A stretch of 41,076 bases of DNA from Deltaproteobacteria bacterium. GTDB lineage: Bacteria > Myxococcota_A > UBA9160 > UBA6930. Made by a program: the position numbers and the translations under genes. Where the stretch lies: the NCBI GenBank assembly GCA_002687015.1, contig NYZB01000269.1, positions 1 through 41,076 on the forward strand, read 5' to 3'. The notes under the pieces are model-generated. The model saw only the letters and a list, made by a program, of their open reading frames with translations, searched no databases and was not told the DNA's origin. Of the stretch, positions 12,490 to 40,982 are shown piece after piece; within the stretch, counting starts at the first letter, position 1; each line of letters begins with the position of its first letter.

Positions 12490-12516
12490 GTGGGAGTCCG
12501 CTGGTCCCGCTCCCAC
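12490..12516. promoter_or_regulatory. Inverted repeat in the divergent spacer before the hydroxylase genes
   Basis: GTGGGAG (12490-12496) and CTCCCAC (12510-12516) are exact complements 13 bases apart, in the 122-base gap between the BadI-like gene and the flavoprotein subunit gene. It could be an operator or a leader hairpin. The GGAGG ribosome site of the downstream gene (12522-12526) lies just after it. No clear promoter boxes were found. Confidence 0.3.
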
Positions 12517-12534
12517 CGCGACGGAGGCGCCCGC

Positions 12535-13437
12535 ATGAAGCCCGCCCGTTTCGAATACGCCGCTCCCCACACACTGCACGAGGCCGTTTCGCTGCTCCAG
12601 CAGCACGAGGACGAGGACGTGAAGATCCTCGCAGGGGGCCAGAGCCTGGTCCCGCTGCTGAACATGCGGATGGCGCGCCCCGAGCTCCTGGTCGATCTCA
12701 ACCGGATCGGCGAGCTGCAGTACATCCGGGAAGAGGACGGTTGGCTGGCCATCGGCGCGATGACCCGCAAGCGCGCCGTCGAGGAGTCGGAGCTGGTGCG
12801 CCAGCGGCAGCCCGTCCTCTTCGAGGCGACCAAGCTGGTGGGGCACCCGCAGATCCGAAACCGTGGCACCGTGGGTGGCTCGATGGCCCATGCCGACCCC
12901 GCTGCGGAGTACCCGGCGCTCGCCCTGGTCCTGGGCGCCGAGATGCGGGCGGTGGGCCCCGGGGGTGAGCGGCGCATCGCGGCCGAGGACTTCTTCCAGA
13001 GTTACCTGATGACCGCACTCGAGCCCGTCGAGGTGCTGACCGAGGTGCGGGTGCCGGTCCTCGAAGCGGAGACGGGCTGGTCCTTCCTGGAGGTGGCACG
13101 CCGGCACGGCGACTTCGCCCTGGGCGGCGCGACGGCCCTCGTCCGGCTCGACGGCGGCGGGAGCATCTCCCAGGCCCGCATCGTGCTCTTCGGCCTGAGC
13201 GCCGGTTCGGTTCGCCTCGAGGAGGTGGAAGGGCTGCTGATCGGGCAACGGCCCGGCGACGCCCTCTACGAAGAAGCGGGGGCCCTGGCGAGCCGCGGGC
13301 TCGAGGATCCCCTCTCGGACACCCATGCCTCGGCGGAGTACCGCCGCCACCTGGCGGGGGTCCTGACGAAGCGCGCCCTCGGCGAAGCGGTCGGGCGGCT
13401 CGGAGCGGGCCAGCCGAGTGAGGAGGGAAGAGGATGA
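12535..13437 (+). CDS. Xanthine dehydrogenase family, FAD-binding (medium) subunit
   Basis: A 300-residue FAD subunit of a three-component molybdenum hydroxylase (CoxM/CutM/HbaD type). Both FAD motifs are clear: AGGQSLVPLLNMRMA (33-47) and NRGTVGGSMAHADPAAEYP (109-127). The C-terminal CoxM-type domain follows. It passes electrons from the 2Fe-2S subunit to an acceptor. The ATG at 12535 has GGAGG nine bases upstream; the frame is open earlier but without conserved sequence. It overlaps the 2Fe-2S subunit gene by four bases (ATGA). The order medium, small, large is that of many CO-dehydrogenase-like and aryl-CoA hydroxylase operons. Confidence 0.92.
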   Translation: MKPARFEYAAPHTLHEAVSLLQQHEDEDVKILAGGQSLVPLLNMRMARPELLVDLNRIGELQYIREEDGWLAIGAMTRKRAVEESELVRQRQPVLFEATKLVGHPQIRNRGTVGGSMAHADPAAEYPALALVLGAEMRAVGPGGERRIAAEDFFQSYLMTALEPVEVLTEVRVPVLEAETGWSFLEVARRHGDFALGGATALVRLDGGGSISQARIVLFGLSAGSVRLEEVEGLLIGQRPGDALYEEAGALASRGLEDPLSDTHASAEYRRHLAGVLTKRALGEAVGRLGAGQPSEEGRG

Positions 13438-13940
13438 CGACGCAGCAGACGATCTCCGTGACGGTCAACGGCACGACGCACGAGGCGCTGGTCGACCCGC
13501 GAACCACGCTCGCTGATTTCCTGCGCGGCGAGCTCGCCCTGACGGGCACCCACGTGGGTTGCGAGCACGGTGTCTGCGGGGCCTGCACGGTGCTGCTGGA
13601 GGGCCGATCGGTGCGCTCCTGCTTGATGCTGGCGGTGCAGGCGGATGGGACGAGTCTGACCACCGTCGAGGGCATGGAGGAGGACGGCAACCTGCATCCG
13701 ATCCAGCTGGCCTTCGTCGAGGAGCACGGGCTCCAGTGCGGCTTCTGCACCCCTGGCTTCCTGATGACCGTGCGAGAGCTGCTCGAGAACAGCCCGGATC
13801 CCAGCGACGAGGAGATCCGGGACGCGCTCGGGGGCCAGATCTGCCGCTGTACCGGCTACCAGTCGATCCTGCGCTCGGTGAAGCTCGCCGCCGCCAAGCT
13901 CCAGGGCGCTCCCCTCGCAGGTACCACCGAGAGCCCCTAG
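13434..13940 (+). CDS. Xanthine dehydrogenase family, 2Fe-2S (small) subunit
   Basis: A 168-residue iron-sulfur subunit with the two expected [2Fe-2S] clusters. The plant-ferredoxin-type cluster uses C43, C48, C51 and C63 (CEHGVCGAC...C). The second, four-helix-bundle cluster uses C102, C105, C137 and C139 (CGFC and CRC). These relay electrons from the molybdenum centre to FAD. Length is normal for the family. It starts inside the stop codon of the FAD subunit gene and is followed after 24 bases by the large subunit gene, so the three are one transcriptional unit. Confidence 0.95.
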   Translation: MTTQQTISVTVNGTTHEALVDPRTTLADFLRGELALTGTHVGCEHGVCGACTVLLEGRSVRSCLMLAVQADGTSLTTVEGMEEDGNLHPIQLAFVEEHGLQCGFCTPGFLMTVRELLENSPDPSDEEIRDALGGQICRCTGYQSILRSVKLAAAKLQGAPLAGTTESP

Positions 13941-13964
13941 ACCTCCTCCGACCCGGGAGACCGT

Positions 13965-16400
13965 ATGTCCATCGAAATCCCCAAGACCCTCGACGACCTT
14001 CCCAACAGCTCGCCCCGCTGGGTCGGCCGCGGCGTCCCGCGCGTGGAGGACCCGCACCTCGTCACCGGACGCACGGAGTTCATCGACAACGTGGTCCTGC
14101 CGGGGATGCTGCACGCGGCCATCCTGCGCAGCCCCATCGCTCACGCCCGCATCCGGTCGGTCGACACCAGTCAGGCCGAGAAGTTGGCCGGGGTGTTCGC
14201 CGTGGTGACCGGCGAGGACGCAAAGCGCTGGAGTCTCCCGAGTCCCACGATGCCCGAGGAGTGGGGCACCCATTGCATGGCCACCGACAAGGTGCGCTAC
14301 GTCGGTGAGCCCGTGGCCGCCGTGGCTGCGGTGAACCGCTACGTCGCCGAAGACGCCATCGAGCTCATCGCCGTCGACTACGAGCCCCTCGAGCCCGTGG
14401 CCGACGCGGTGAAGGCGGTGGGGCCGGACGGCCCGCTGGTGATGGAGGAGAAAGGCACCAACGTCATGCTCCAGCGGGTCTTCACCTGGGGCGAAGTGGA
14501 CGAGGCCTTCGCAGACGCGGATCGCGTCTTCACCGAGAAGTTCCGCTGGCATCGCCTTGGCGCCAACCCCATGGAGACCTTCGGCGTGATCGCCCAATGG
14601 GATCCCGTGGACGAGAGCCTGACCCTGCGGGCGAGCGTCCAGTCGGCCCTGCACTTCGGGCTGGGCCGCGCCGCCGTCCTGGGTCTCGCCTCCAACAAGG
14701 TGCGCGTGATCCCCCACCCCCACGGCGGGAGCTTCGGGGGCAAGGGCGGCACCCGCGGCTGCGACGTCGCGGCGCTCCTGACCCGCAAGGCCGGCGGAAG
14801 GCCGGTCAAGTGGATCGAGGATCGCTCGGAGTACCTGACCGGCGGCGGAAGCCAGTCCTGGGATCGCCACTACGAGGTATCCCTCGCGGTGAAGAACGAC
14901 GGCCGTGTCACGGGCCTCCACGTCAAGCTGCTCGACGACATGGGGGCCACGGGCGAGGCCTTCGGCGCCGTCAACACGGTCAAGCCGCTGGCCTGCTTCA
15001 CCGGGCCCTACGCGATCCCGGTGGCGCGTTACGACCTGACGCTCGTCGCCACGAACAAGCTGCCCCAGAGCCCCTATCGCGGGATGGGGCCGCCGCCGCA
15101 CAACTACGTGCTCGAGCAGATGATGGACATCGCGGCGCGTGGTCTCGACATGGATCTCGCCGAGATCCGGCGCGTGAACTTCATCCCGAAGGGTGCCTTC
15201 CCCTACACCATCCCCAGCGGCAACGAGTACGACAGCGGCGACTACGAGGCCGTGCTCGACAAGGCCCTCGAGCTGGCGGACTACCCGGCGCTTCGCGATC
15301 AGCAGGCCGCGGCGCGCGCCGAGGGCCGCTGCGTGGGCATTGGCGTCGTGAGCGCCATCGAGCCCGGCGTCTTCGACTGGAACGCCTACGCGGTCGTCGG
15401 TGCGCAGGGAACCGGAGTGCCCGAGGGCGCCACGGTCAGCATCGACGTCCTGGGCAAGATCACCATCCGTGTGGGCTTCGCCATGGAGGGCCAGGGCCAG
15501 TACACCCTCGCCACGCAGCTCGTAGCGGACTACTTCTGCGTGGGCTTCGAGGACATCAAGGTCGTCGTCCTCGACACGCACTCGGCGCCACCGGCCTTCG
15601 GCCCGGGTGGGAGCCGCCTGGGTGTGGCCCTCACCGGTGCCGTGCTCGGTGCCTGCGAGCGACTCAAGGCAAAGCTCGTCAAGGTGGCGGCTGGGCTCTT
15701 CCAGATGGACGCGTCACAGGTCGACCTGGTGGACGGCAATCTCGTCGCCAAGGACGTGCCCGGCGTCGAGATGCCGATGGCCGCCGTGGCCGGCACCATG
15801 CTGGGACGCAGCGACCTGCTGCCGCCCGGTGTGGATCCGCGCCCCGAGGCGACCTACGTCTGGACCGCCCCCGGACGCACCGAGGCCGACGAGCAGGGCA
15901 GGGCGAAGACCTACCTGACCGCCGCCCAGGCGGTGCACGTGGTGATGGTCGAGCTGGATGAAGAGACCGGGCTCGTCGAGATACTCGAGTACTGCGTCGT
16001 CGACGATTGCGGTACGCGTCTCAACCCCGCCACCGTGGAGGGGCAGACCGAGGGAAGCATCGCCCAGGGCATCGGTGCGGCACTGCTCGAGGAGTACGTC
16101 TACGACGACCAGGCGCAGATCCTCACGTCGAGCTTCATGGACTATCTGCTCCCGACCGTCAACGAGGTGCCGGCCATGAAGAAGGGGATCGTCGTGACGC
16201 CCTCGCCCTTCACGCCGCTCGGCGCCAAGGGTTGTGGAGAGGGCGCGATGCACACCACCCCGGCCGCCGTCCTCTCCGCGATCAACGACGCTCTTCTGCC
16301 CCTGGGCGTCCGAGCGAACGAGGTGCCGGCGAGCCCGAACCGCCTATGGACCCTGATCCACGACGCGAAACCCCAAGCTGCGGGCGAAGGCCCCAGGTAG
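13965..16400 (+). CDS. Xanthine dehydrogenase family, molybdopterin (large) subunit
   Basis: An 811-residue catalytic subunit that would hydroxylate its substrate with oxygen from water at a Mo-cytosine-dinucleotide-type centre. Visible landmarks are the opening RWVGRGVPRVEDPHLVTG (18-35), GGSFGGKGG (254-262), the active-site loop SPYRGMGPPPHN (369-380) and the C-terminal catalytic glutamate Glu759 in GAKGCGEGAM. The loop lacks the AYxCSFR cysteine of true aerobic CO dehydrogenases, so CO oxidation is unlikely. Family members with nearby CoA genes hydroxylate or reduce aromatic or alicyclic CoA thioesters, or oxidise N-heterocycles and aldehydes. The abundance of acyl-CoA genes favours a CoA thioester, by inference. 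Confidence 0.92.
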   Translation: MSIEIPKTLDDLPNSSPRWVGRGVPRVEDPHLVTGRTEFIDNVVLPGMLHAAILRSPIAHARIRSVDTSQAEKLAGVFAVVTGEDAKRWSLPSPTMPEEWGTHCMATDKVRYVGEPVAAVAAVNRYVAEDAIELIAVDYEPLEPVADAVKAVGPDGPLVMEEKGTNVMLQRVFTWGEVDEAFADADRVFTEKFRWHRLGANPMETFGVIAQWDPVDESLTLRASVQSALHFGLGRAAVLGLASNKVRVIPHPHGGSFGGKGGTRGCDVAALLTRKAGGRPVKWIEDRSEYLTGGGSQSWDRHYEVSLAVKNDGRVTGLHVKLLDDMGATGEAFGAVNTVKPLACFTGPYAIPVARYDLTLVATNKLPQSPYRGMGPPPHNYVLEQMMDIAARGLDMDLAEIRRVNFIPKGAFPYTIPSGNEYDSGDYEAVLDKALELADYPALRDQQAAARAEGRCVGIGVVSAIEPGVFDWNAYAVVGAQGTGVPEGATVSIDVLGKITIRVGFAMEGQGQYTLATQLVADYFCVGFEDIKVVVLDTHSAPPAFGPGGSRLGVALTGAVLGACERLKAKLVKVAAGLFQMDASQVDLVDGNLVAKDVPGVEMPMAAVAGTMLGRSDLLPPGVDPRPEATYVWTAPGRTEADEQGRAKTYLTAAQAVHVVMVELDEETGLVEILEYCVVDDCGTRLNPATVEGQTEGSIAQGIGAALLEEYVYDDQAQILTSSFMDYLLPTVNEVPAMKKGIVVTPSPFTPLGAKGCGEGAMHTTPAAVLSAINDALLPLGVRANEVPASPNRLWTLIHDAKPQAAGEGPR

Positions 16401-16412
16401 AAGGAGAACGAC

Positions 16413-17384
16413 ATGGCGAACAACGACCATTTCGTGGCGCTGTCCGAGTGCCACTTTATGAACCCGGTCACCATGGCCGAAATCAGCTACTACCCCAACA
16501 CCGAGCGATGGTGGGCGAGCGTCGACGGCGTGATGCGCGCCTGGTCGGGCCGGGATCTCTCGGGCGAGTGGCCCCATCCCATCGCCAGCGAGCTGATCAA
16601 GTACATGGACGAGGCGGGCGTCGACGTCTGCTTCGCCCTGCGCGAAGGGATGATGGACATCAGCGGCCACACCGTGTCGCTCTCCACCAACGCCTTCATG
16701 CTGCAGCAGATCGAGCCCTATCCCGATCGCATGTACCTCGAGGCGATGGTGGGCCCCATCATCCGACGCGGCCTCGACCACGCCATCTGGGAGCTCGAGC
16801 ACCTCGTCAAGGAGTGCAACGCCAAGCTCTGCAAGGTGTACCAGCCCGAAGACGACGGCCCCCTGGACGATAGGCGGATGTGGCCCTTCTACGAGAAGGC
16901 CTGCGAGCTCGACATCGCGCTGACCGTCCATACCGGCATGTCCTACGTGGTCCCGCAGCCGAACGCCCACACCATGCCCAACACGCTCGATCGGGTGCTG
17001 CTCGACTTCCCCGAGCTCAAGATGATCGCCTATCACATGGGCTGGCCGAACACCGAGGAGCTGATCGGGCTCGCGGGCAAGCACCAGAACCTCTACCTGA
17101 GCATGTCCGGTATCGCCGGCTGGTACGAGCGCTCGCGCTACCGCGGCTACCACGCGATCGGTACGGCGCTGCAGTGGGTGGACCCGAGCAAGATCGTGAT
17201 GGGCCTCGACCTGCCCTTCGACGACACCAAGCGGGTGGTCGACTGGGCGAGGAACCTGCAGATCCCCGAGGAGCTGCAGAAGAACTACGGCTACCCGGAG
17301 ATCACCGACGAGATGCGGGCGGGCTTCCTCGGCCTGAACCTGGCGCGGCTTGCGAAGATCGAGCCGACCAAGAGGGTCAAGTGA
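16413..17384 (+). CDS. Amidohydrolase family 2 (TIM-barrel metal-dependent hydrolase)
   Basis: A 323-residue protein of the amidohydrolase-2 group (ACMSD/gamma-resorcylate decarboxylase-like). Recognisable features are a first-strand His in SECHFMNP (12-19, where HxH is usual but the second His is Met), the His of ALTVHTGM, the His of IAYHMGWP and the late Asp of MGLDLPF. Members are metal-dependent decarboxylases, lactonases or hydrolases; the altered first motif may mean a changed or weaker metal site. AAGGAG precedes the ATG at 13 bases. It lies 12 bases after the molybdenum subunit gene and 16 bases before the thiolase-fold gene, so it is in the same operon. The reaction cannot be inferred further. 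Confidence 0.75.
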   Translation: MANNDHFVALSECHFMNPVTMAEISYYPNTERWWASVDGVMRAWSGRDLSGEWPHPIASELIKYMDEAGVDVCFALREGMMDISGHTVSLSTNAFMLQQIEPYPDRMYLEAMVGPIIRRGLDHAIWELEHLVKECNAKLCKVYQPEDDGPLDDRRMWPFYEKACELDIALTVHTGMSYVVPQPNAHTMPNTLDRVLLDFPELKMIAYHMGWPNTEELIGLAGKHQNLYLSMSGIAGWYERSRYRGYHAIGTALQWVDPSKIVMGLDLPFDDTKRVVDWARNLQIPEELQKNYGYPEITDEMRAGFLGLNLARLAKIEPTKRVK

Positions 17385-17400: not shown

Positions 17401-18564
17401 GTGACGGACGAGGCCTGCATCGTCGGGATCGGCGAGACCGCCTACGTGCGGAAGCCGGGCTCGGGCTTGAGCCTGCTGGGGCTGCAGCTCCAGGCGGCGG
17501 TGCGCGCCATCGAGGATGCCGGGCTCACGGGAAGGCAGATCGACGGGATCATGCCCTTCCCCAACCTGGGCCACGCCGAGAGCTTCGCCGCCAACCTCGG
17601 CTGCGAGAACCTGCGCTTCCAGTCGATCGTCTGGATGGGCGGCGCCGCCCCCGTGGCTTCGCTGCGGGTCGCGGCCGCCGCTGTCCGGCAGGGGCTTGCC
17701 GACCACGTGCTGATCCCCGGCGGGTGGAACGGCTACTCGGGTGCCCGTGCGCGCCAGACCGTGGCCGAGGACGTCTCGTCGCTTCCCGGAGGCGCCATCG
17801 CGCGCGACTACTACCTGCCCTTCGGTTTCTCGGCTCCGCCCCAGTGGTATTCGGTGATGGCCCGCCGGCACATGCACGAGTTCGGGACCCGCGCCGAGCA
17901 GCTCGGCTGCATCGCGGTGGCCATGCGCAAGCATGCCCAGCTCAATCCGAATGCCGTGATGAAGGCGCGCCCGATGAGCATCGAGGACTACCTGGCCTCG
18001 CCGATGCTGGCGGATCCCTACCGCTTCTTCGACTGCTGCCTCGAGACCGATGGGGCTGCGGCGGTGGTGGTGACCACTCCCGAACGCGCACGGGACCTCG
18101 GCAAGGAGCCCGTCTTCATCATGAGTGCGGCGGCCGGCCAGCCCTGCCCGGCAGATGAGATCACCAATCGGAAGGACATCTTCCAGACCGGTCTGAGCCT
18201 GGCCGCACCCGAGGCCTTCGGTCGGGCCGGGATCTCGCCTGGGGACGTGGACTTCGCCCAGATCTACGATTGCTTCACCTTCGAAGTGCTCCAACAGCTG
18301 GAGGAGGCGGGCTTCTGCAAGCGCGGTGAGGGCGGCGCCTTCGTCGAGGGGGGCCGCATCGAGCTGGGTGGAGAGCTCCCCGTGAACACGCACGGCGGGC
18401 TCCTCTCCGAGGCTCACGTTCTCGGGTTGAACCACATCGTCGAGGCCGTCCGACAGCTTCGCGGCGATGCCGGCGAGCGCCAGGTGGCAGAGGCCGAGGT
18501 CGGCGTGGTGACGGGCTGGGGCGATTTCGGCGACGGCAGCATCGCCATCCTGCGCCGCGCGTGA
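17401..18564 (+). CDS. Thiolase-fold protein lacking the catalytic Cys (Ltp2-like aldolase candidate)
   Basis: A 387-residue protein of the SCP-x/lipid-transfer thiolase family. The position of the nucleophilic Cys (normally in a GCAxG or ACGSG segment) reads VWMGGAAPVAS (77-87), so it cannot be a normal thiolase. The segment IYDCFTFEVLQQLEEAGFC (288-306) followed by RGEGGAFVEGG is the hallmark of Ltp2-type proteins. These form a complex with a DUF35 partner and carry out a retro-aldol cleavage that releases a short side chain from a steroid CoA ester. A DUF35 gene lies 10 bases downstream, as expected. The His in SEAHVLGLNH (336-345) replaces the usual GHPxGATG. Start is the GTG at 17401. 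The substrate is unknown. Confidence 0.8.
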   Translation: MTDEACIVGIGETAYVRKPGSGLSLLGLQLQAAVRAIEDAGLTGRQIDGIMPFPNLGHAESFAANLGCENLRFQSIVWMGGAAPVASLRVAAAAVRQGLADHVLIPGGWNGYSGARARQTVAEDVSSLPGGAIARDYYLPFGFSAPPQWYSVMARRHMHEFGTRAEQLGCIAVAMRKHAQLNPNAVMKARPMSIEDYLASPMLADPYRFFDCCLETDGAAAVVVTTPERARDLGKEPVFIMSAAAGQPCPADEITNRKDIFQTGLSLAAPEAFGRAGISPGDVDFAQIYDCFTFEVLQQLEEAGFCKRGEGGAFVEGGRIELGGELPVNTHGGLLSEAHVLGLNHIVEAVRQLRGDAGERQVAEAEVGVVTGWGDFGDGSIAILRRA

Positions 18565-18574: not shown

Positions 18575-19003
18575 ATGGTGAACCAGGGCGAGACAGGAAT
18601 CCCCAGACCTCTTCCCGAGCTCGAGGGTCTCTCCGGGGACTTCTACGGGTATTGCAGGGATCGCGAGCTCCGCTTCCAACGCTGCAGCGACTGCGGACAG
18701 TGGCGGCACGTGCCGCGGGAGATGTGCGCCGAGTGCGGCTCCTGGAACTGGGAGGGGGAGCGCTCGAGCGGGCGGGGACGGGTCTTCACGTGGACGGTGG
18801 TCGCCCGGGCCCTTCACCCGGCCTTCCAGGATGCCTGCCCCTATGCGCCGGTCGTCATCGAGATGGAAGAAGGCGTGCGGGTCCTGAGCGAGATGACGGA
18901 CTGTGCGCCCGAGGAGCTGGAGATCGACCTACCCGTCGAGGTGGTCTTCGAGGACGTGAACGAGGACGTCACGCTGCCGAAGTTCCGGCGCACCGCGTCC
19001 TGA
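18575..19003 (+). CDS. DUF35 OB-fold / zinc-ribbon acyl-CoA-associated protein
   Basis: A 142-residue DUF35 protein. The rubredoxin-like zinc ribbon C37-x2-C40...C51-x2-C54 (CSDC and CAEC) is followed by an OB-fold domain with the typical VFTWTVV strand and PYAPVVIEMEEGVRVLSEM segment. DUF35 proteins bind acyl-CoA and pair with thiolase-fold enzymes; ChsH2-type members complete the Ltp2 retro-aldolase. The preceding Cys-less thiolase-fold gene is therefore its probable partner. The ATG at 18575 has a purine-rich GTGGAGAGAG just before it. A second DUF35 gene occurs at 36227. Confidence 0.88.
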   Translation: MVNQGETGIPRPLPELEGLSGDFYGYCRDRELRFQRCSDCGQWRHVPREMCAECGSWNWEGERSSGRGRVFTWTVVARALHPAFQDACPYAPVVIEMEEGVRVLSEMTDCAPEELEIDLPVEVVFEDVNEDVTLPKFRRTAS

Positions 19004-19050
19004 CCGACGCCGGACTTCGAGAGGTCCGCAACACCCAGGGAGCCGATCCA

Positions 19051-19824
19051 TTGGAACTACCCTCCACCGTTTCGTACGAGTGCAAGGACCACATCGCGGT
19101 CGTTACCATCGACCGACCCGATGCTCTGAACTCCCTCACGGCCGAGATGCTGACGGGGATCGAGGACGCCATGACGGCCTTCCAGGCCGACCCGGATCTC
19201 TGGGTGGCCATCCTCACCGCCGCGGGCGACAAGGCCTTCTCCTCCGGGCTCGACCTGAAGGAGGCGGCCCCCATGCTGACGGGCGGCGACAGCCTGGGCT
19301 TCGACGACACGACCAAGCGCCAGTTCTCCGACGTCTTCAAGCCGATCATCTGCGCGGTCAACGGCTTCTGCATCGCCGGCGGGATGGAGATGCTGCTCGG
19401 GACCGATCTCCGCATCGCCGCCGAGCACGCGACCTTCGGCCTGGGCGAGGTGCGCTGGGGCCTGGTGCCGCTCGGCGGGACCCACGTCCGGCTTCCGCGC
19501 CAGATCCCCTGGGCCATGTCGATGCAGCTGCTGCTGACGGGCAAGCCGATCAGCGCCCAGCGCGCCTACGAGGTGGGGCTGATCAACGAGGTCGTGTCCC
19601 CCGAGGAGCTCATGCCCACCGCGCGGAAATGGGCGGAGAACCTCTGCAAGAACGGCCCCCTCGCGATGCGCACGGCCAAGGAGATCGCGGTCCGCTCCCT
19701 CGAGCTCGAGTCGGGCTTCGTGCTCGAGAAGGCCCTGGGCGCCCGGGTCCTCGGCTCCCAGGACGCCAAGGAAGGGCCTGCGGCCTTCGCCGAGAAGCGA
19801 AAGCCGCGTTTCACGGGAAGCTGA
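19051..19824 (+). CDS. Enoyl-CoA hydratase (crotonase family)
   Basis: A 257-residue crotonase of normal size. Both catalytic glutamates are in place: Glu113 in GGMEMLLGTD and Glu133 in FGLGEVRWG, with the oxyanion-hole segments around AFSSGLDLK (62-70). It should hydrate a trans-2-enoyl-CoA to the 3-hydroxyacyl-CoA. The start is a TTG at 19051 with AGGGAG about eight bases upstream, 47 bases after the DUF35 stop; no ATG is closer to the conserved N-terminus (STVSYECKDHIAVVTIDRP). The following gene begins one base after its stop region. It is likely the hydration step acting between the dehydrogenase and the retro-aldolase. Confidence 0.88.
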   Translation: MELPSTVSYECKDHIAVVTIDRPDALNSLTAEMLTGIEDAMTAFQADPDLWVAILTAAGDKAFSSGLDLKEAAPMLTGGDSLGFDDTTKRQFSDVFKPIICAVNGFCIAGGMEMLLGTDLRIAAEHATFGLGEVRWGLVPLGGTHVRLPRQIPWAMSMQLLLTGKPISAQRAYEVGLINEVVSPEELMPTARKWAENLCKNGPLAMRTAKEIAVRSLELESGFVLEKALGARVLGSQDAKEGPAAFAEKRKPRFTGS

Positions 19825-19825: not shown

Positions 19826-22756
19826 GTGGGAGTGGACGCCAATCGCACGGGAAGCGCCGGCATCAGCCGCCGGGACTTCCTCTGGGGCTCCGGAGCGACC
19901 GTCGTGCTCGCCCTGGGCCAGCTCCGGTGTCGGGATGCAGAGCAGGCCGCGTCGCTCCCTCCCCCGGCTCCCGGCATCCCGCCGGAGTACGGAGATTGGC
20001 GGGATCTCTATCGCCAGCGTTGGACCTGGGATCGCATCTCCAAGAGCACCCACTACGTCAACTGCGCCTACCAACGCGGCTGTGCCTGGAACGTCTACGT
20101 GAAGGACGGCGTGGTCTGGCGCGAGGAGCAGGTCGGCGACTATCCGCAGACCAACCCCGAAGTGCCCGACTTCAACCCGCGCGGCTGCCAGAAGGGTGCC
20201 TGCTACAGCGATCGCATGCACGACCCGTCGCGCCTGCTGCACCCCATGAAGCGGATCGGTGAGCGCGGTGAGGGGCGCTGGAAGCGCATCTCCTGGGAAG
20301 AGGGGCTGCGCGAGGTCGCCGATGCCGCCATCGACGCCATGGTCGAGGACGGACCGGGCTCGATCATCTGGGACATGGGAAGCGCGGTGACCAACGGCTG
20401 CCACGGTCTCGGGCTGACCCGCACGGTATCCGTGCTCGACACGCCGATGCTCGAGACGAACACCGAGATCGGCGACCACTATCCGGGCGCCACCGTCACG
20501 ACCGGGAAGATCTGCTTCACCGGCTCCTTCGACGATCTCTTCTACTCCGACCTGATCTTGATCTGGGGTGGCAACCCCAACTACACGCAGATCCCCAACG
20601 TCCACTTCATCAACGAGGCGCGCTATCACGGGGCCAGCGTGGTGGCGATCACGCCGGACTACAACGCCTCCTGCATCCATGCAGACGAGTGGGTGCCGGT
20701 GAAGATGGGAAGCGACGCGGCTCTGGGCCTGGCTCTGGCCCAGGTGATGGTCGAGGAGGAGATCTTCGACCGTCGCTTCGTCGTCGAGCAGTCCGATCTG
20801 CCCTTCCTGGTGCGCCAGGACAACGGCCTCTTCCTGCGCGAGAGCGACCTGGAGGAGGGCGGCCGGGAAGACGCCTTCTACGTCTTCGACCGGAAGGCCG
20901 CGAAGGTGGCTCCGGCCCCGCGATCGACCCTGGCTCTTGGCGGCCTCGACCCCAGCCTCGAAGGCGAGTACCGGGTGCAGACGCGCGACGGAGAGGTCGG
21001 CGTGACCCCGGTCTTCGCCCTGCTGAAGAGACGGCTCGCAGAGTACACCCCCGAGCAGGCTGCCGAGATCACGGGGACGCCCCCGAAGCAGATCCGGAAG
21101 CTCGCGCGGGCCCTGGCCAAGGCCAGGGCGGCCAGTGCCATCACCCAGACGAACTTCTCCAAGTACTACCACGGCATGGAGATGGAGCGGGGTCTGATCC
21201 TGGCCTTCACGCTGGCGGGCCAGATCGGGAAGAAGGGAGCCGGAATCGCGGCCTTCCCCTACCTCTCGATTGCGGGTCCCGATGCCCTGGCCGTCGCGAA
21301 CGGCAGCCTGCCTCCCAAGCTCGGTCTCGCCGCCCTCGGCATCCAGTCGCTTCCCGCGATGGCCACGATGAAGCTGGACGGGTACTCGGAGGAGATGATG
21401 ATCTCCGCCCTGAGTCGCCTGGAGTACAAGTCGGGGCGCTACCTCGCCACGCCGCTCTGGCTCTACATGTACGGCGGGCTCGAGGAGCTCTACGGGAGCG
21501 CCAGGCGTTGGGATCCCTCGCTGCCGCGCGAGTTCAAGGAGTACTTCGACGAGGCGGTGGCGAAGGGATGGCAGGTGGTTCCCACGACGCGCCCCCGCAT
21601 CGTCTTCGAGGTCGGTGGCAATCTCCTGCGAAGGGTGCGCGGCTACGACCGGATGATCGACGGGCTGCTCCCGAATCTCGATCTGCTCGTCACCGTCGAC
21701 TGGCGGATGAGCAACACGGCCCGCTTCAGCGACTACGTGTTCCCCGCCGCAGGCTGGTACGAGAAGGACGACCTCACCTGGGGATCGCCCATCACGCCCT
21801 TCTGCCACGTGACGACCCGCGCCGTCGAGCCCCTGGGCGAGTCGAAGCCCGACTGGGAGTTCCACTGCCTCTTCCTCAAGACCCTGCAGCAGCGTGCCAT
21901 CGAGCGGGGCATCACCGAATTCGTGGATCGAGCGGGAGAGACGCGGCGTCTGGATCGCGTGTACGACGAGTTCACCTTCGGCGGGCGTTTCACGGAGGAG
22001 AACACCGAGGAGTTCCTCGACGAGATGCTCTCCGTCACCACCAATCTCGGTGATGTGCGATGGGAGGAGATCAAGGAGAAGGGCTACGCCCGCTACACGG
22101 GTGTAGGCATGAGCCCCTCCCAGATCAACCACGCCACCGACATCGAGCCGGACCAGACGATCACGGCGAACACCTGGCAGGTGCAGAAGAAGCAGCCCTG
22201 GCCCACGCTGACCCGACGAATGCAGTTCTACATCGATCATCCCTACTTCCTGGAGATGAAGGAGGAGCTGCCCGTCCACAAGGACAACCCGAAGCTGGGC
22301 GGGGACTACCCCCTCGAGATGACGGGAGGCCACGACCGCTGGTCGATTCACGCTTCGTGGCGCGACAACGAGCCCCTTCTCCAGCTGCAGCGCGGCGAGC
22401 CGGTCGTCTTCATCGGCGAGGAGGATGCCGGCCTGCGCGGGATCGGGGACGGGGCCAAGGTGCGCCTCTACAACGACCTGGGCTCCTTCGAGATCCAGGC
22501 CAAGGTCACGCCCTCCCTGCATCCGGGACAGGTGGTCGTCTACCACGCCTGGGAGCCCTTCCAGTTCAAGGATGGCAAGTCCCATCAATCGCTGATTCCG
22601 AGCCCCATGAACCCGATCCACCTGGCGGGCGGCTACTTCCAGCTCCAACCGACGCTCCTGATGGGCGAACCCGGCTGCCCGGACCGCGGGACCCGGGTCG
22701 AGGTGGAGCTGCTGCAAGGGGCCGGGCGCTCGCAAAACCTAGGAGAAGCCACATGA
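19826..22756 (+). CDS. Exported DMSO-reductase family molybdoenzyme catalytic subunit (S25DH/EbdA-like)
   Basis: A 976-residue Mo-bis-MGD enzyme of the type II DMSO-reductase group. A twin-arginine signal is clear (SRRDFLWGSGA, 14-24). The N-terminal cluster motif has the class II His ligand: H76-x3-C80-x5-C86-x34-C121, followed by GCQKGAC. Asp217 in IGDHYPGATV is the probable Mo ligand. The string FNPRGCQKGACYSDRM and the overall layout are close to ethylbenzene dehydrogenase and steroid C25 dehydrogenase alpha subunits, which hydroxylate hydrocarbons with water in the periplasm. No iron-sulfur beta, haem gamma or chaperone gene is adjacent; the next gene, an acyl-CoA dehydrogenase, overlaps it by four bases (ATGA). 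The start is GTG 19826, or GTG 19832. Confidence 0.85.
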   Translation: MGVDANRTGSAGISRRDFLWGSGATVVLALGQLRCRDAEQAASLPPPAPGIPPEYGDWRDLYRQRWTWDRISKSTHYVNCAYQRGCAWNVYVKDGVVWREEQVGDYPQTNPEVPDFNPRGCQKGACYSDRMHDPSRLLHPMKRIGERGEGRWKRISWEEGLREVADAAIDAMVEDGPGSIIWDMGSAVTNGCHGLGLTRTVSVLDTPMLETNTEIGDHYPGATVTTGKICFTGSFDDLFYSDLILIWGGNPNYTQIPNVHFINEARYHGASVVAITPDYNASCIHADEWVPVKMGSDAALGLALAQVMVEEEIFDRRFVVEQSDLPFLVRQDNGLFLRESDLEEGGREDAFYVFDRKAAKVAPAPRSTLALGGLDPSLEGEYRVQTRDGEVGVTPVFALLKRRLAEYTPEQAAEITGTPPKQIRKLARALAKARAASAITQTNFSKYYHGMEMERGLILAFTLAGQIGKKGAGIAAFPYLSIAGPDALAVANGSLPPKLGLAALGIQSLPAMATMKLDGYSEEMMISALSRLEYKSGRYLATPLWLYMYGGLEELYGSARRWDPSLPREFKEYFDEAVAKGWQVVPTTRPRIVFEVGGNLLRRVRGYDRMIDGLLPNLDLLVTVDWRMSNTARFSDYVFPAAGWYEKDDLTWGSPITPFCHVTTRAVEPLGESKPDWEFHCLFLKTLQQRAIERGITEFVDRAGETRRLDRVYDEFTFGGRFTEENTEEFLDEMLSVTTNLGDVRWEEIKEKGYARYTGVGMSPSQINHATDIEPDQTITANTWQVQKKQPWPTLTRRMQFYIDHPYFLEMKEELPVHKDNPKLGGDYPLEMTGGHDRWSIHASWRDNEPLLQLQRGEPVVFIGEEDAGLRGIGDGAKVRLYNDLGSFEIQAKVTPSLHPGQVVVYHAWEPFQFKDGKSHQSLIPSPMNPIHLAGGYFQLQPTLLMGEPGCPDRGTRVEVELLQGAGRSQNLGEAT

Positions 22757-23958
22757 CGACCTATCACCTGGATTCCGCACTCAGTGACGACATGAAGCAG
22801 GTGCGGGACACCGTTCATCGCTTCGCCGTGGAGGTGATGCGGCCCGCCGCGGCGGAGCTCGATCGGATGTCCGATGCCTCGGACGTGGTCGCGCCCGACT
22901 CGGTGCTCTGGAAGGTCATGGATCGCTACAAGGAGCTGGGCATTGGCGACCCCAGCAAGTACGACCCGGACCTGAGCCCCGCGGAGCGCGCCCTGCTGCA
23001 CGCGGTGGTCCTGGAGGAGCTCAGCTGGGGGGATGTGGGGCTGGCCATCTCGGTCGGGCTCTGCGACACCATCGCGCCCTGGGCGCTGGGCTTCGGGAGG
23101 CAGGAGGCCTACGAGTACTTCAGCAAGCGGGAGGACATCGGCTGTCTGGCCCTGACGGAGCCCGACCATGGCAGCGATCACGTCGGGTTCACGGAGCCCA
23201 TCTTCAGTGATCCGGCGGTTCGGCCGAGCTGCCGCGCCCGCCGCGAGGGCAACGAGTACGTGATCAACGGGCAGAAGGCCGCCTGGGTCTCGAACGGCAC
23301 GATCGCGACGGCGGCCGCGCTCTTCTGCACGATGGAGGACTCGAAGGACGGCCTGAAGGGTGGGGCGGCCTTCCTGGTTCCTCTCGAGCTCCCCGGTGTC
23401 AGCCGCGGAAAGCCCCTCGACAAGATCGGACAGCGCTCCCTCAACCAGGGCGAGATCTTCTTCAGCGACGTGCGGGTCCCGGAGGCCTTCATGCTGATCG
23501 AGGGCCCCGACGCCTACGGGATGGTGTGGGAGATGGTGCTCAAGCAGGCCAACTCCGCCATGGGGCAGCAGTTCGTCGGGGTGGCCCGAGCGGCCCTGGA
23601 CCACGCGGTCGCCTACGCGAAGGAGCGCGTCCAGGGCGGGGTACCCATCATCCAACACCAGGGTGTGAAGGCGCGCCTGTTCCGGATGTTCTCCAAGGTC
23701 GAGGCGGCTCGCGCGCTCGCGCGACGCGTGGCCGTCGAGGCCGCGGTCGCCGACATCCCCTTCCAGCACGCCGCGGCGTCCAAGATCGTCTGCACGCAGA
23801 CCGCCTACGAAGTGGCGCACGATGCGGTCCAGATCTTCGGCGGAAACGGGCTGGCGCGCGAGTACCCGGTGGAGAAGCTCTTCCGGGATGCCCGCGCTTC
23901 GCTCATCGAGGACGGTGAGAACGATTTCCTGGGTCTGATGGCGGCTTCCCGCCTCTGA
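22753..23958 (+). CDS. Acyl-CoA dehydrogenase, catalytic Glu position occupied by Asp
   Basis: A 401-residue FAD enzyme that would introduce a double bond into an acyl-CoA and pass electrons to ETF. The signature stretches LALTEPDHGSDH, VINGQKAAWVSNG and FGGNGLAREYPVEKLFRDAR are present. In medium-chain enzymes the base is Glu in a YEGT motif near the C-terminus; here the aligned sequence is IEDGEN, placing Asp387 at that point. Asp at this position is known in alicyclic acyl-CoA dehydrogenases that do 1,4-elimination on cyclohexenecarboxyl-CoA, so a ring substrate is conceivable. The ATG overlaps the stop of the molybdoenzyme gene. The open frame upstream of this ATG is a shadow. Confidence 0.9.
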   Translation: MTTYHLDSALSDDMKQVRDTVHRFAVEVMRPAAAELDRMSDASDVVAPDSVLWKVMDRYKELGIGDPSKYDPDLSPAERALLHAVVLEELSWGDVGLAISVGLCDTIAPWALGFGRQEAYEYFSKREDIGCLALTEPDHGSDHVGFTEPIFSDPAVRPSCRARREGNEYVINGQKAAWVSNGTIATAAALFCTMEDSKDGLKGGAAFLVPLELPGVSRGKPLDKIGQRSLNQGEIFFSDVRVPEAFMLIEGPDAYGMVWEMVLKQANSAMGQQFVGVARAALDHAVAYAKERVQGGVPIIQHQGVKARLFRMFSKVEAARALARRVAVEAAVADIPFQHAAASKIVCTQTAYEVAHDAVQIFGGNGLAREYPVEKLFRDARASLIEDGENDFLGLMAASRL

Positions 23959-23986: not shown

Positions 23987-24775
23987 ATGGAACTGAGAGA
24001 AGCCATTGGGGACCGTCGCTCGATCCGATATCTGGATCCCGATCGTCCCGTGGAGCTGGAGAAGATCCAGCGCATGCTGGAGGCCGCGCGCATCGCCTCC
24101 CACTTCGGAAACAACAATGCGGTCCGCGCGTTGGTGGTCCACCGCGAGAGCGCCACCAGCGAGCAGATCGCATCCCTGCCCTCTCCTGTGGGCGGCTTCC
24201 AGATGCAGCTCGCCCCGGTGATCATCCTCTGGTACGTCGAGGGCAACGCCATGGACGAGGCCGGTCAGCGCCTGCGCGAGCTGGTCCATTGCGGCGCTCT
24301 GGGCTACGGCCCGGGCAAGCTCAAGGAGCTCGAAGAGACCCTGGTGCCGCTCTTCGACCGCATCGGCGAGGCCCTCAAGGGCCCGGGCATGGTGGACATG
24401 GACCTGGGTCAGGCCGTGGCGCAGGCAACGCTGGTGGCCGTGGAGCAGGGGCTCGGCACCTGCTGTCAGGGGTCCGCCGAATGGGCCAAGGTCGAGGCCG
24501 CGTTCGGGCTGCCGGAGAGCTGCCGCATCGTCGTGGCACAGACCGTGGGCTATCCCCTGGAGAGCCGGAATGCCGGAGGCCAGCGCCCGCGCCTGCCCTT
24601 CGAGGATCTCTTCCAGCTCAACTCCTGCGACCGTCCCTTCCCCCGCTCGCAGGAGGTGGTGGAGGAGCTGACCCGGGAGAAGCTGCTCCAAGCTCCGGCG
24701 CCCCTGCTGGGACGAGAGGAAGAGATCGAAGGCATCAGGGAGCGCTACAAGCTGCCCGGCTCGGGAATGATCTAG
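23987..24775 (+). CDS. Nitroreductase-family flavoprotein
   Basis: A 262-residue protein with the nitroreductase fold start: AIGDRRSIRYLDPDRPVELE (6-25), where the RRSxR motif contacts the FMN phosphate, and EAARIASHFGNNNAVR (32-47). The second FMN segment (AVAQATLVAVEQGLGTCCQG, 145-164) is also typical. Family members reduce nitro groups, quinones or enoyl bonds, or act as ring dehydrogenases on CoA esters. The C-terminal 50 residues are longer than in minimal nitroreductases and end in an amphipathic basic tail. It sits between the acyl-CoA dehydrogenase and a thiolase on the same strand, so a redox step on a CoA-bound intermediate is more likely than detoxification. Confidence 0.75.
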   Translation: MELREAIGDRRSIRYLDPDRPVELEKIQRMLEAARIASHFGNNNAVRALVVHRESATSEQIASLPSPVGGFQMQLAPVIILWYVEGNAMDEAGQRLRELVHCGALGYGPGKLKELEETLVPLFDRIGEALKGPGMVDMDLGQAVAQATLVAVEQGLGTCCQGSAEWAKVEAAFGLPESCRIVVAQTVGYPLESRNAGGQRPRLPFEDLFQLNSCDRPFPRSQEVVEELTREKLLQAPAPLLGREEEIEGIRERYKLPGSGMI

Positions 24776-24809: not shown

Positions 24810-26021
24810 GTGCGTGTGAACTCCGTGGTTGCGGGCGTCGCGATGACGCCCTTCGGCAAGCACTTCGACAAGAGCCTGAAGCAGCTCGGAGGCGAGCCGG
24901 TCCTGGCGGCCGTCAAGGACGCCGGAATCGAGCTCTCCGACATCGAGGCCGCCTACGTGGGCAACTGCGCCGCCGGCACGGTGACGGGCCAGGAGTCGAT
25001 TCGCGGCCAGGTGATCCTCAGCTCGGTGGGGCTGGGCAAGATTCCGATCGTGAACATCGAGAACGCCTGCGGGAGTGGCAGCACCGCTCTCAACCAGGCC
25101 TGCATGATGGTCTCCGCCGGCTACTACGACGTCGTGCTGGTTGTCGGGGTCGAGAAGCTCTACCACGAGAACAAGGCCGTCACCTACGCGGCCTTCTCGG
25201 GCGCCGTCGACATCGAAGAGCGGGACAAGATGATGGAGGAGATCACCGCCGGCCAGTCCGAAGGCTCCGGGACGAACCGCTCGATGTTCGCCGACTTCTA
25301 CGGCGTGATGGCCAGGGAGCACATGGAGAAGTACGGCTCCACTCCAGAGCACTTCGCGATGGTCTCCGCCAAGAACTCGTACCATGGCAGCCTGAATCCG
25401 AACGCCCAGTTCGCGAACGAGATGACGGTCGAGGAGGTCCTGGCGCAGCCGACGATCGTGGAGCCGCTGACCCGTCCCATGATCTGCCCCGTCGCAGACG
25501 GTGGCGCGGCGGCGATCATCGTGAGCGAGCGCAAGGCCCGCCAGCTCGGCATCGAGAACCCCGTTCGGGTGGTGTCGAGTGTCGTGCACTCCTTCTACGA
25601 CCATCCCGAGGACGCCGAAGAGAACGTCAGCAGCCTGTGCGTCGACGAGGGGTACTACGAAGCGGGGATCGGGCCCGAGGATCTGGACGTGGTCGAGCTG
25701 CACGACTCGTCGGCCGTGACGGAGATTCTCGTCTACGAGAGCCTGCATCTGTGCCCTCCCGGGGAGAGCGTCAAGCTGCTCGCGGACGGGGAGACGAAGC
25801 TCGGCGGGCGCATCCCCGTCAACACCTCCGGGGGGCTCCTCCGCAAGGGGCACCCCGTCGGGGCCACCGGCGTCGCGCAGATCCTGGAGCTCACTCGCCA
25901 GCTCCAGGGGCGCGCCGGCAAGCGGCAGGTCGAGGGAGCGCGGGTCGGACTCGCGCACAACGGCGGCGGCACCATCAAGGGCGAGGTCGCCGCCATGAAC
26001 ATCAACGTCTTGATGCGATGA
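24810..26021 (+). CDS. Thiolase / SCP-x family acetyl-CoA C-acyltransferase
   Basis: A 403-residue thiolase-fold enzyme with the main catalytic residues: nucleophile Cys87 in ENACGSGSTAL and His348 in RKGHPVGATG. The C-terminal Cys of classic thiolases (CxGGG) is replaced in AHNGGG, as is usual for the SCP-x type. It should cleave a 3-ketoacyl-CoA with CoA. The start is the GTG at 24810, decided by a perfect ribosome site AGGAGGT (24797-24803) six bases upstream. Unlike the two other thiolase-fold genes in the window it is not next to a DUF35 gene. A small intercistronic hairpin separates it from the following ligase gene. Confidence 0.9.
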   Translation: MRVNSVVAGVAMTPFGKHFDKSLKQLGGEPVLAAVKDAGIELSDIEAAYVGNCAAGTVTGQESIRGQVILSSVGLGKIPIVNIENACGSGSTALNQACMMVSAGYYDVVLVVGVEKLYHENKAVTYAAFSGAVDIEERDKMMEEITAGQSEGSGTNRSMFADFYGVMAREHMEKYGSTPEHFAMVSAKNSYHGSLNPNAQFANEMTVEEVLAQPTIVEPLTRPMICPVADGGAAAIIVSERKARQLGIENPVRVVSSVVHSFYDHPEDAEENVSSLCVDEGYYEAGIGPEDLDVVELHDSSAVTEILVYESLHLCPPGESVKLLADGETKLGGRIPVNTSGGLLRKGHPVGATGVAQILELTRQLQGRAGKRQVEGARVGLAHNGGGTIKGEVAAMNINVLMR

Positions 26022-26062: not shown

Positions 26063-27682
26063 ATGCGGGATCGAAATCCGTTCATCCTGGCAGACCTCGT
26101 CCAGATCCGAGCCGACGAGAAGCCGGACCTAGACGTCCTGACCTTCGAGCACTGGAGCCTCGACGGCGGTGCAACGAAGGACGAGGTGCGCAGCTACGCG
26201 GATCTCCAGACCAACGCCAACCGGATCGCGGCGAGCCTGGTCGAGAGGGGGATGGAGCCGGGCGATCGCTTCGCGATCATGATGCGCAACCATCCGGAGT
26301 TCGCCGAGGCGATGATCGCGGCGTCGATCACCGGCTGCATCTTCGTTCCCATCGATCCCCGAACCCGGGGCGAGAAGCTGGCCTTCCTGCTGCGCAACTC
26401 GGGCTGCCGCGGCGTGTTCTGCGCGGACTACTGCGCAGCGGCGCTGCAAGAGGTTCGCGGGCAGACACCGGACCTCGAATGGCTGTTCGCGCTGGATTCC
26501 GGCGATGCGGCCGTGGAAGCGGCAGGGGATCCCGGAGCCCTGGCTTCGCTGAACGAGATCCTGTCCGCGCCGGCGGAGACCGTGAGGACCCGGGTGGAGG
26601 AGGTCACCCAGCCCCTCCAGATCATCTACACCTCGGGCACGACCGGGGATCCGAAGGGGATCGTGGGGGACCACATGCGCTTCGGTGGGACCGGCATGCT
26701 GGGCGCCATCTTCGGGTATCAGGACGACGAGCGCCCCTACACCGGCCTCTCCCTCACCCACAACAACGCCCAGGCCACGGCCCTGGCTCCGGCCCTGATG
26801 TCGGGCTATCGGGCGGTGTTCAGCCGGCGGTTCAGCAAGTCGAAGCTGTGGGAGGTCTGCCGCAGGTACGACTGCACCAGCTTCTCGCTGGTGGGCGGAA
26901 TGGCCACCGCGATCTACAGCGAGCCGCCCCGGGAGGACGACGCCGACAACCCGGTGCGCCTGGTCGTGAGCGGTGGCATGCCGGCCCCGATCTGGGAGGC
27001 CTTCGAGCGCCGCTTCGACGTCCAGATCTTCGAGTTCTACGGCGCGAGCGACGGCGGCGGCATGGCCTACAAGCCCCCGGGCGTCGGGCCGGTGGGCTCC
27101 TTCGGCAAGCCCATGAGCGGTCTCGACATGCGCATCCTCGACGAGGACGGCAAGGAGTGTCCCCCGGGTGTGGTCGGGGAGATCTGCTGTCGTCCCGAGG
27201 GTGCCGAAGAAGCGAGCGTCGAATACTTCGGGAACCCAGAGGCCTCGCGCAAGAAGATCCGGGGCGGTTGGAACCGCAGCGGAGACATGGGGCACCGGGA
27301 TGCGGAGGGCTGGCTCTACTTCGACTACCGGATCGGCGGTGGGATCCGCCACAACGGCGACTTCGTGAACCCCGGCTTCGTCGAGAAGGTGATCGCCGAG
27401 GATCGCCAGGTCTCGGACGTGTTCGTCTACGGGGTGCCCGCTGCGTCACAGGCCCCCGGCGAGAAGGACGTCGTCGCCGCGATCGTGCCGGAGGATCCCG
27501 CTGGCTTCGACCCGGGTGCGCTCTTCACCCACTGCCGCAAGGGCCTCGAGCCCAACTTCGTGCCCAGCTACCTGCAGCTCGTCGACGAGATCCCGAAGAC
27601 TGCATCCGAGAAGCCCCAGGAGCACCTGCTGCAGGGTCGTTTCGCGCCCGATGCACCCGGTGTCTGCGCCGAGGGATCCTGA
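26063..27682 (+). CDS. AMP-forming acyl-CoA ligase (CaiC-like) with divergent C-terminal motifs
   Basis: A 539-residue ANL-family ligase. The phosphate loop is intact (TSGTTGDPKG, 190-199). The later motifs are weaker: the YGxTE segment reads FYGASDGGG, the adenosine motif RSGDMGH is present, but the hinge is DYRIGGGIRHNGDFVNP and the usual PSGK lysine segment is TASEKPQ, with the lysine kept. The sequence resembles crotonobetaine/carnitine-CoA ligases and other CaiC-like enzymes that work with CaiB transferases. Start ATG 26063 follows CGGAGAAG. It probably activates an acid intermediate or the starting compound. Reduced second-half activity is possible given the divergent motifs. Confidence 0.82.
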   Translation: MRDRNPFILADLVQIRADEKPDLDVLTFEHWSLDGGATKDEVRSYADLQTNANRIAASLVERGMEPGDRFAIMMRNHPEFAEAMIAASITGCIFVPIDPRTRGEKLAFLLRNSGCRGVFCADYCAAALQEVRGQTPDLEWLFALDSGDAAVEAAGDPGALASLNEILSAPAETVRTRVEEVTQPLQIIYTSGTTGDPKGIVGDHMRFGGTGMLGAIFGYQDDERPYTGLSLTHNNAQATALAPALMSGYRAVFSRRFSKSKLWEVCRRYDCTSFSLVGGMATAIYSEPPREDDADNPVRLVVSGGMPAPIWEAFERRFDVQIFEFYGASDGGGMAYKPPGVGPVGSFGKPMSGLDMRILDEDGKECPPGVVGEICCRPEGAEEASVEYFGNPEASRKKIRGGWNRSGDMGHRDAEGWLYFDYRIGGGIRHNGDFVNPGFVEKVIAEDRQVSDVFVYGVPAASQAPGEKDVVAAIVPEDPAGFDPGALFTHCRKGLEPNFVPSYLQLVDEIPKTASEKPQEHLLQGRFAPDAPGVCAEGS

Positions 27683-27727
27683 AGAGGCCCGGGCGGGCCG
27701 CTGACTTTCACCATGAGGATTCGACCG

Positions 27728-28678
27728 ATGACCGATGTGAGAACGGAAACGGCGGCTCCGATCGCCGAAGCGCGCATGGAAGGGACGGTGGAGCTGGGTG
27801 ACGGCCGCTCGATCGGCGTGGCCGAGTACGGCGACCCGGATGGCGACGCCATCTTCTGGTTCCACGGCACGCCGGGCGGGCGCCGGCAGGTTCCGCCGCT
27901 GGCCCGCGAGCTCGCCGCCGAGCGCGGCGTGCGCCTGATCGGCGTCGAGCGTCCCGGGGTGGGCAGCTCCACCCCCCACCTCCACGACCGCGTGGCCGAT
28001 GGCGCCCGCGACATCGAGCACGTGGCCGACCGGCTCAATATCGGGCGCTTCGGCATCGTCGGTCTCTCGGGAGGCGGACCCTACGTGCTGGCCTGCGCGC
28101 ACGAGCTGCCGGAGCGGGTGGTCGCCGGGGCGGTGCTGGGCGGCGTCGCGCCTGTCTGCGGTGAGGAGGCCGCCTCCGGTGGGGCCGTGGCTCTCGCCGG
28201 GCGTTTCGGCCCTCTCCTCGAGATGCTCTACCAGCCGCTGGGACACTTCGTCTGGGCCACCGTCTTCGCCCTCCGGCCGCTGGCCTCCCAGGCCTTCGAC
28301 CTCTTCATCGGCACGATGCCCGAAGGTGATCAGGAGGTGATGAACCGCCCCGAGATGAAGGAGATGTTCATTGACGACATGCTCCGCGCCGGCCGTTCGC
28401 AGCTGCACGCGCCGATCTACGACGCGGTGCTCTTCGCGAGGCCGTGGGGCTTCTCGCTGCGGGACATCCGGGTCCCGATCCGCTTCTGGCACGGAGATTC
28501 CGACCACATCGTGCCGTTGGATCACGGCGAGCACCAGGCCAAGCTGGTTCCGGATTCCGATCTCAAGGTGAGGCCGCGCGAGGGGCACATGGGCAGCCTC
28601 GACGCCGCCGAGGAGATCCTCGACACGATCCTGGGCCTCTGGCCGGGTCGCGAGACGGGCCGGCCGGATCCGGCCTAG
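27728..28678 (+). CDS. Alpha/beta-fold hydrolase
   Basis: A 316-residue alpha/beta hydrolase with a complete triad: Ser114 in the nucleophile elbow GLSGGGPY, an Asp in HGDSDHIVP and the His in REGHMG near the C-terminus. The oxyanion motif FHGTPGG precedes the triad. I chose ATG 27728 because GAGGA lies eight bases upstream; an ATG at 27713 would add five residues without a ribosome site. A lid of about 100 residues with hydrophobic helices (FGPLLEMLYQPLGHF) separates Ser and Asp, suggesting a bulky, hydrophobic substrate. It could be an esterase, lactonase or C-C hydrolase in the pathway. Confidence 0.85.
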   Translation: MTDVRTETAAPIAEARMEGTVELGDGRSIGVAEYGDPDGDAIFWFHGTPGGRRQVPPLARELAAERGVRLIGVERPGVGSSTPHLHDRVADGARDIEHVADRLNIGRFGIVGLSGGGPYVLACAHELPERVVAGAVLGGVAPVCGEEAASGGAVALAGRFGPLLEMLYQPLGHFVWATVFALRPLASQAFDLFIGTMPEGDQEVMNRPEMKEMFIDDMLRAGRSQLHAPIYDAVLFARPWGFSLRDIRVPIRFWHGDSDHIVPLDHGEHQAKLVPDSDLKVRPREGHMGSLDAAEEILDTILGLWPGRETGRPDPA

Positions 28679-33860: not shown

Positions 33861-33877
33861 TGCGCCTCGGTCCCGGC

Positions 33878-40956: not shown

Positions 40957-40982
40957 CAACTCCATGGTTACAGTCGGTCTTA

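Follow-up and report, generated by a model that had tools for sequence, protein, structure and literature searches.

How does a molybdenum hydroxylase subunit work, and on what substrate, when no genes for its electron-transfer partners lie beside it? The question is raised by a catalytic alpha subunit of the type II dimethyl sulfoxide (DMSO) reductase family encoded in the 41,076-nucleotide stretch of DNA analyzed here, referred to below as the window (contig NYZB01000269.1 of the deltaproteobacterial assembly GCA_002687015.1). The initial annotation of this protein described an orphan, Tat-exported enzyme of the EbdA/S25DH type. The lack of an adjacent beta, gamma, or chaperone gene was borne out for the whole window, and genome-wide family searches for such genes matched other contigs only. 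The orphan status itself did not survive, as contig C233 of the same genome carries a complete gamma-beta-alpha-delta set and contig C168 a second delta chaperone gene. This protein is probably the alpha subunit of a new steroid hydroxylase subfamily, likely acting on the side chain, that borrows a shared beta-gamma pair encoded elsewhere.

Enzymes of this group hydroxylate unactivated carbons without oxygen, and they have been characterized in few organisms. Neither the enzyme type nor shared beta-gamma is new in itself; as far as the literature was searched, what is new is the clade described here, its association with a steroid locus in Myxococcota-type genomes, and the extent of the alpha expansion. 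This uncharacterized clade is widespread in such genomes, which have as many as 27 alphas per 4 betas, and it is linked to a steroid locus. Two questions become testable: whether interchangeable alphas all rely on beta-gamma as a universal electron module, and which carbon is oxidized by the clade. The clade also points to anaerobic sterol breakdown beyond the well-studied betaproteobacteria.

The catalytic subunit and its clade

The alpha gene (Table 1) is a genuine open reading frame with a GTG start. Its product matches the TIGR03479 profile over the entire length (1 to 913 of 913) with a score of 932.9 bits, below the curated cut-off of 984.75. The C233 alpha, although encoded in a beta-gamma operon, scores 923.9 bits, and nearly all alphas of the relatives are below the cut-off too, so this cut-off appears to be strict for this branch. 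The top solved structure is EbdA (PDB 2ivf; 677 bits, with PcrA at 463), and the initial assignment to an intact EbdA/S25DH-type alpha is upheld. The EbDH equivalog profile NF042978 gives only 697 bits versus the required score of at least 2000. Comparison with the 90% orthologue (dN/dS 0.11) and the 80% orthologue (dN/dS 0.13) indicates that the gene is under purifying selection. A scan for promoters and terminators yielded nothing above chance, and a search of the plasmid collection for named relatives recovered only ClrA, NarG-type, and haloarchaeal homologues.

The predicted Tat export is supported by the twin-arginine motif S14-RRDFL. The FS0-coordinating His and three Cys residues and the Asp ligand of Mo align with those of EbdA and PcrA. 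H76 and Asp217, initially listed as intact, do not vary among clade sequences that are complete at these positions, and neither do C80, C86, and C121. The C80-x5-C86 spacing had been singled out as unusual; this idea was rejected, as EbdA itself reads CWPQGSC and the same spacing is found in the sister clade and in most of the window clade. The position of Lys446 is occupied by Lys in the window, C233, S25DH-like, and EbdA groups and by Arg in the S26DH-like group, whereas His192 of EbdA has no conserved equivalent. In-frame TGA (selenocysteine) codons in alpha paralogues were also considered and rejected: the family-profile search gave no internal stops, only C-terminal read-through.

Table 1. 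Features of the window discussed in the text
Feature	Positions	Strand	Basis
FAD subunit of xanthine-oxidase-family enzyme (AtcABC-like)	12490..13437	+	Family match
[2Fe-2S] subunit of AtcABC-like xanthine-oxidase-family enzyme	13434..13940	+	Family match
Mo large subunit, AtcA-like (1-testosterone hydratase/dehydrogenase family)	13965..16400	+	Sterolibacterium matches, atcA primer sites
Amidohydrolase	16413..17384	+	Family match; conserved in G002 and G003
Ltp2-like thiolase-fold (retro-aldolase-type) protein	17401..18564	+	Best PDB match 6ok1 (lipid-transfer protein); 93% in L089
DUF35/ChsH2-type OB-fold partner protein	18575..19003	+	PF12172 and PF01796
Enoyl-CoA hydratase, 1 base upstream of alpha	19048..19824	+	Family match
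Catalytic alpha subunit, type II DMSO reductase family, 976 aa	19826..22756	+	Profile and structure-library matches, dN/dS
Twin-arginine motif S-R-R-D-F-L, residues 14-19	19865..19882	+	Read in translation; same motif type in EbdA and other alphas
FS0 [4Fe-4S] ligand region H76, C80-x5-C86, C121	20051..20188	+	Alignment; C-x5-C spacing as in EbdA (2ivf)
Asp217, aligned with EbdA Asp223 (Mo ligand)	20474..20476	+	Invariant across all clades compared
Lys446, aligned with EbdA Lys450	21161..21163	+	Alignment of clades
Acyl-CoA dehydrogenase, ATGA overlap with alpha at 22753-22756	22753..23958	+	Family match, neighborhood comparison
Nitroreductase-family flavoprotein, conserved module	23987..24775	+	Family match, neighborhood comparison
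SCP2-type thiolase, conserved module	24810..26021	+	Best PDB matches 6hsj/6hrv (SCP2-thiolase type-1)
AMP-forming acyl-CoA ligase	26063..27682	+	Family match, neighborhood comparison
Alpha/beta hydrolase	27713..28678	+	Family match, neighborhood comparison
FAD-binding protein, PRK07121 subfamily	28686..30149	+	Score above curated cut-off
97-base stretch shared without differences with the beginning of C168, the continuation of the locus	40306..40402		Contig comparison
Chimeric contig tail with cytochrome c552 (NrfA-type) fragment	40403..41076		GC 0.55 versus 0.686

In trees of 101 and 41 alphas (AhyA from Hxd3 and CmdA were not among them), the window alpha belongs to a fully supported clade (100/100), whose sister group, also at 100/100, consists of the C233-type alphas of gamma-beta operons. 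Three other groups are separate from it: EbdA with sequences from Chloroflexota, an S25DH-like group that includes Sterolibacterium and the second alpha of Myxococcota operons, and an S26DH-like group of Sterolibacterium and HdN1, the latter two names being assigned to the Sterolibacterium groups from published identity ranges. Joining the window alpha with the S25DH-like group in one clade is rejected by the AU test (p 1.8e-5); the deepest branch order is unsure, owing to long outgroup branches and, in the AU-test tree, to an outgroup that no single branch sets apart. In congeners and relatives, alphas of the window type coexist with S25DH-like and S26DH-like ones. The initial annotation had proposed that a deep branch with a conserved gene neighborhood would support a new enzyme type, and placement inside a characterized clade would speak against one. 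The alpha lies outside the EbdA, S25DH-like, and S26DH-like groups on a separate, well-supported branch, but its neighborhood is only partly conserved.

The steroid-type locus

The alpha gene is adjoined by acyl-CoA genes, as initially described, including the four-base overlap with the acyl-CoA dehydrogenase gene, but the locus is more specifically steroid-like than a generic set of CoA ester genes. The same acyl-CoA dehydrogenase adjoins the orthologous alpha in G002, G042, and G052, and in G038 it adjoins a clade member of 61% identity. The module is not universal: G003 lacks the acyl-CoA dehydrogenase, nitroreductase, and thiolase genes beside its alpha, and G047 lacks the module. Electron transfer flavoprotein (ETF) and flavoprotein genes are also present in the window. 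Several class III CoA-transferase genes (31443-34805, 7748-10182, and 9714-11408) flank the steroid-type genes, and one pair of them is apparently arranged in tandem in a single frame.

Upstream of the alpha gene, the Ltp2-like protein and its DUF35 partner form what we take to be a pair of the type that cleaves steroid side chains. The AtcA-like large subunit is 60 to 62% identical to the single strong match in each of three genomes of Sterolibacterium, a known steroid degrader, and its gene carries both sites of the published atcA-specific primers (no mismatches for the reverse primer and four for the forward one), spanning 1173 bp. AtcABC, the hydratase of the 2,3-seco pathway (PMC5554518), is likewise a three-subunit enzyme of the xanthine oxidase family (PMC5554518, PMC6208644), and positions 12490 to 16400 would encode a putative counterpart. 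The adjoining contig C168 encodes an AcmB-like protein that resembles 3-ketosteroid-delta-1-dehydrogenases (top PDB match 7p18, 586 bits versus 283 for the next). With its AtcABC-like enzyme, Ltp2-DUF35 aldolase, SCP2-thiolase, and AcmB-like dehydrogenase, the locus looks like one for anaerobic steroid degradation.

Among 60 relatives, an AtcA-like gene is found in 11 of the 12 genomes that have a window-clade alpha and in 13 of the 48 that do not (within-family permutation, p 0.0002). AtcA-like matches (65% and up) are separated by a clear gap from other homologues (42% and below). G038, which is 85% complete, has a clade alpha and the module with no AtcA-like gene at the threshold used, and the link of the clade to steroids may therefore not be strict. 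The whole trait also looks patchy within the genus, since the 93%-complete congener G001 has no alpha or AtcA-like match at an E value of 1e-100 and no beta match at 1e-60.

Sources of beta and gamma subunits

The window comes from an 82%-complete assembly of 279 contigs. The search for EbdB, EbdC, and EbdD homologues suggested in the initial annotation did find beta, gamma, and delta elsewhere in this genome, with EbdB and EbdC candidates scoring below the equivalog cut-offs of the curated profiles. The C233 beta (529 bits) is above its family cut-off, and the gamma-beta-alpha gene order on C233 is the one published for S25DH4 (PMC6016249). A Tat-exported alpha, a beta with four Fe-S clusters, a heme b gamma, and a chaperone are thus available genome-wide from non-adjacent genes. 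In the region that carries FS0, the window and C233 alphas share 71% identity, versus 36 to 56% elsewhere, which fits a common partner. The C233 set is a different, paralogous one, because its alpha is 67% identical to the operon alpha of the congeners, versus approximately 90% for the window neighbors; C233 is tied to the window by binning only, with no physical link.

Other alphas in this genome are encoded on C161 (58% identity, truncated at the contig end), C233 (49%), and C4 (a 106-residue N-terminal piece). The C4 and C161 pieces are not halves of one gene, as their sequences differ in the overlap. The C4 fragment, a partial clade-like alpha at the contig edge (L017 1-1682), is divergent from a gene for a NapC/NirT-type multiheme cytochrome. 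Neither an S25DH-like nor an S26DH-like alpha turned up in this 82%-complete genome, which leaves the pathway logic incomplete here.

The window ends in a low-GC chimeric tail of 674 bases, and C168, not C233, is its physical continuation. C168 is collinear with both congeners at approximately 82% identity for 5.5 kb and then reaches the delta chaperone gene within approximately 90 bases, bypassing the approximately 8.4-kb gamma-beta-alpha-alpha segment of the congeners (junction region L019 5519-5640). This arrangement suggests that the gamma-beta-alpha-alpha block was deleted here and delta was left behind, although, with the junction seen in one contig, it could be a misjoin. Past the lone chaperone gene, C168 encodes DUF455-like and phytanoyl-CoA dioxygenase-like proteins (L019 7080-9548).

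Clade members do occur next to beta-gamma genes in other genomes. The 80% orthologue from Myxococcota bacterium Arabian9_MAG_39 (L021, the same contig as G042:C126) comes third and last among the alphas of a gamma-beta-alpha-alpha-alpha array. Acyl-CoA dehydrogenase, nitroreductase, SCP2-thiolase, and ligase genes follow, as in the window, and the entire series is encoded on a single strand. Clade members also adjoin beta-gamma in L023 and L024. In congeners G002 and G003, a gamma-beta-alpha-alpha-delta set is located on the same contig 34 kb and 19 kb, respectively, from the 90% orthologue, whose immediate neighbors are likewise without beta-gamma. Of 10 clade loci whose flanks are long, about 7 lack a beta in the surrounding 10 kb or so. 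At the same time, a beta was found in 16 of the 17 genomes searched, the exception being G001, which has no alpha either.

Many alphas per few beta-gamma pairs are the norm in these genomes. Very large type II alpha families with few beta genes were seen in G047 (27 alphas to 4 betas by profile count), G021 (12 to 1 in a 99%-complete genome), G042 (15 to 7), and G002 (approximately 19 to 6, with gene fragments among the alphas); the ratio in G003 is 5 to 3. Alphas also outnumber beta-gamma in Sterolibacterium denitrificans, where S25DH1 is composed of alpha1-beta3-gamma3 and sharing of beta-gamma among alphas has been proposed and used (PMC6016249).

Proposed function and its alternatives

From the gene content, conservation, clade membership, and operon context in relatives described above, we infer complex formation, substrate, and regiospecificity as follows. 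The alpha would be the catalytic part of a periplasmic Mo hydroxylase with an alpha-beta-gamma composition like that of S25DH and EbDH. Judging by the family mechanism, it would use its Mo(VI)=O group to remove hydride from an alkyl carbon, which would then receive a hydroxyl derived from water. Electrons would exit through its own FS0 cluster to beta (Fe-S) and gamma (heme b), which are encoded elsewhere and shared with other alphas; with the nearby gamma-beta-alpha-alpha block apparently deleted, this role would fall to the beta-gamma pair of C233 or to a set missing from the assembly. A steroid is the most likely substrate, with hydroxylation probably in the side chain. The ligase encoded nearby would activate the product, and the neighboring acyl-CoA dehydrogenase, enoyl-CoA hydratase, SCP2-thiolase, and Ltp2-DUF35 aldolase would shorten it by beta-oxidation.

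Of the two routes for electrons raised by the initial annotation, the evidence favors distant subunits, given the clade members in gamma-beta operons of other families; a different acceptor, linked there to the orphan status, is weakened by the same operons and by the beta, gamma, and delta genes of this genome. Independence of the alpha from beta-gamma, or electron transfer from it to a flavoprotein, ETF, or multiheme cytochrome instead, is very unlikely: the frequent lack of a beta nearby, the ETF and flavoprotein genes in the window, and the cytochrome gene next to the C4 alpha are consistent with it, but the FS0 ligands are intact, the FS0 region is most similar to that of an operon alpha, and every alpha-bearing genome examined has at least one beta. 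The Tat signal of the alpha, moreover, points to export, and ETF is cytoplasmic. There is even less reason to see a mere assembly or binning gap in the missing beta-gamma, a highly improbable explanation despite the incomplete, fragmented assembly and the chimeric tail of the window, since the immediate neighbors of the orthologue in two congeners also lack beta-gamma and C168 runs through the expected site without them.

With regard to the substrate, an EbdA-like hydroxylase of alkylbenzenes or alkanes with steroid genes as incidental neighbors is unlikely. It would agree with EbdA being the closest solved relative and sharing the C-x5-C spacing and with the gene content of G038, and we know of no characterized steroid enzyme in the window clade. 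However, identity to EbdA is only 37.5%, the alpha falls outside the EbdA group and lacks a conserved counterpart of His192, steroid-type genes surround it, and the co-occurrence with AtcA-like genes holds within families. A plain S25DH or S26DH orthologue catalyzing the same reaction would explain the common fold, the shared beta-gamma arrangement, the steroid locus, and the Lys446 found in S25DH-like alphas; nevertheless, this is quite unlikely in view of identities of 38 to 41% to the S25DH-like and 35 to 36% to the S26DH-like Sterolibacterium alphas, the AU test result, and the presence of all three alpha types in congeners and relatives. A broader version of the preferred reading, a steroid hydroxylase alpha with borrowed beta-gamma, is offered tentatively: the clade may represent a third functional class of Mo steroid hydroxylases, acting at neither C25, the S25DH position, nor the allylic C26 oxidized by S26DH, with many alphas plugged into few common beta-gamma modules.

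The closest parallels are S25DH1-4 of S. denitrificans, which also have type II alphas with a Tat signal and active-site Asp and Lys, several alphas per fewer beta-gamma pairs, and a steroid-degrading gene context (PMC6016249). In contrast to the window alpha, the S25DH-like alphas have a C-x3-C spacing, and the operon of the window alpha also packs acyl-CoA genes. S26DH1-3 share the enzyme architecture and pathway type (PMC7411048, PMC11061730), whereas the putative S26DH-like alphas differ in the Arg residue noted above and, often, in an alpha-beta-gamma gene order. EbdABCD (PDB 2ivf) has the same FS0 spacing and equivalent Asp223 and Lys450 residues, but the window alpha, unlike EbdA, has no adjacent beta-gamma-delta genes and is found in a different gene context.
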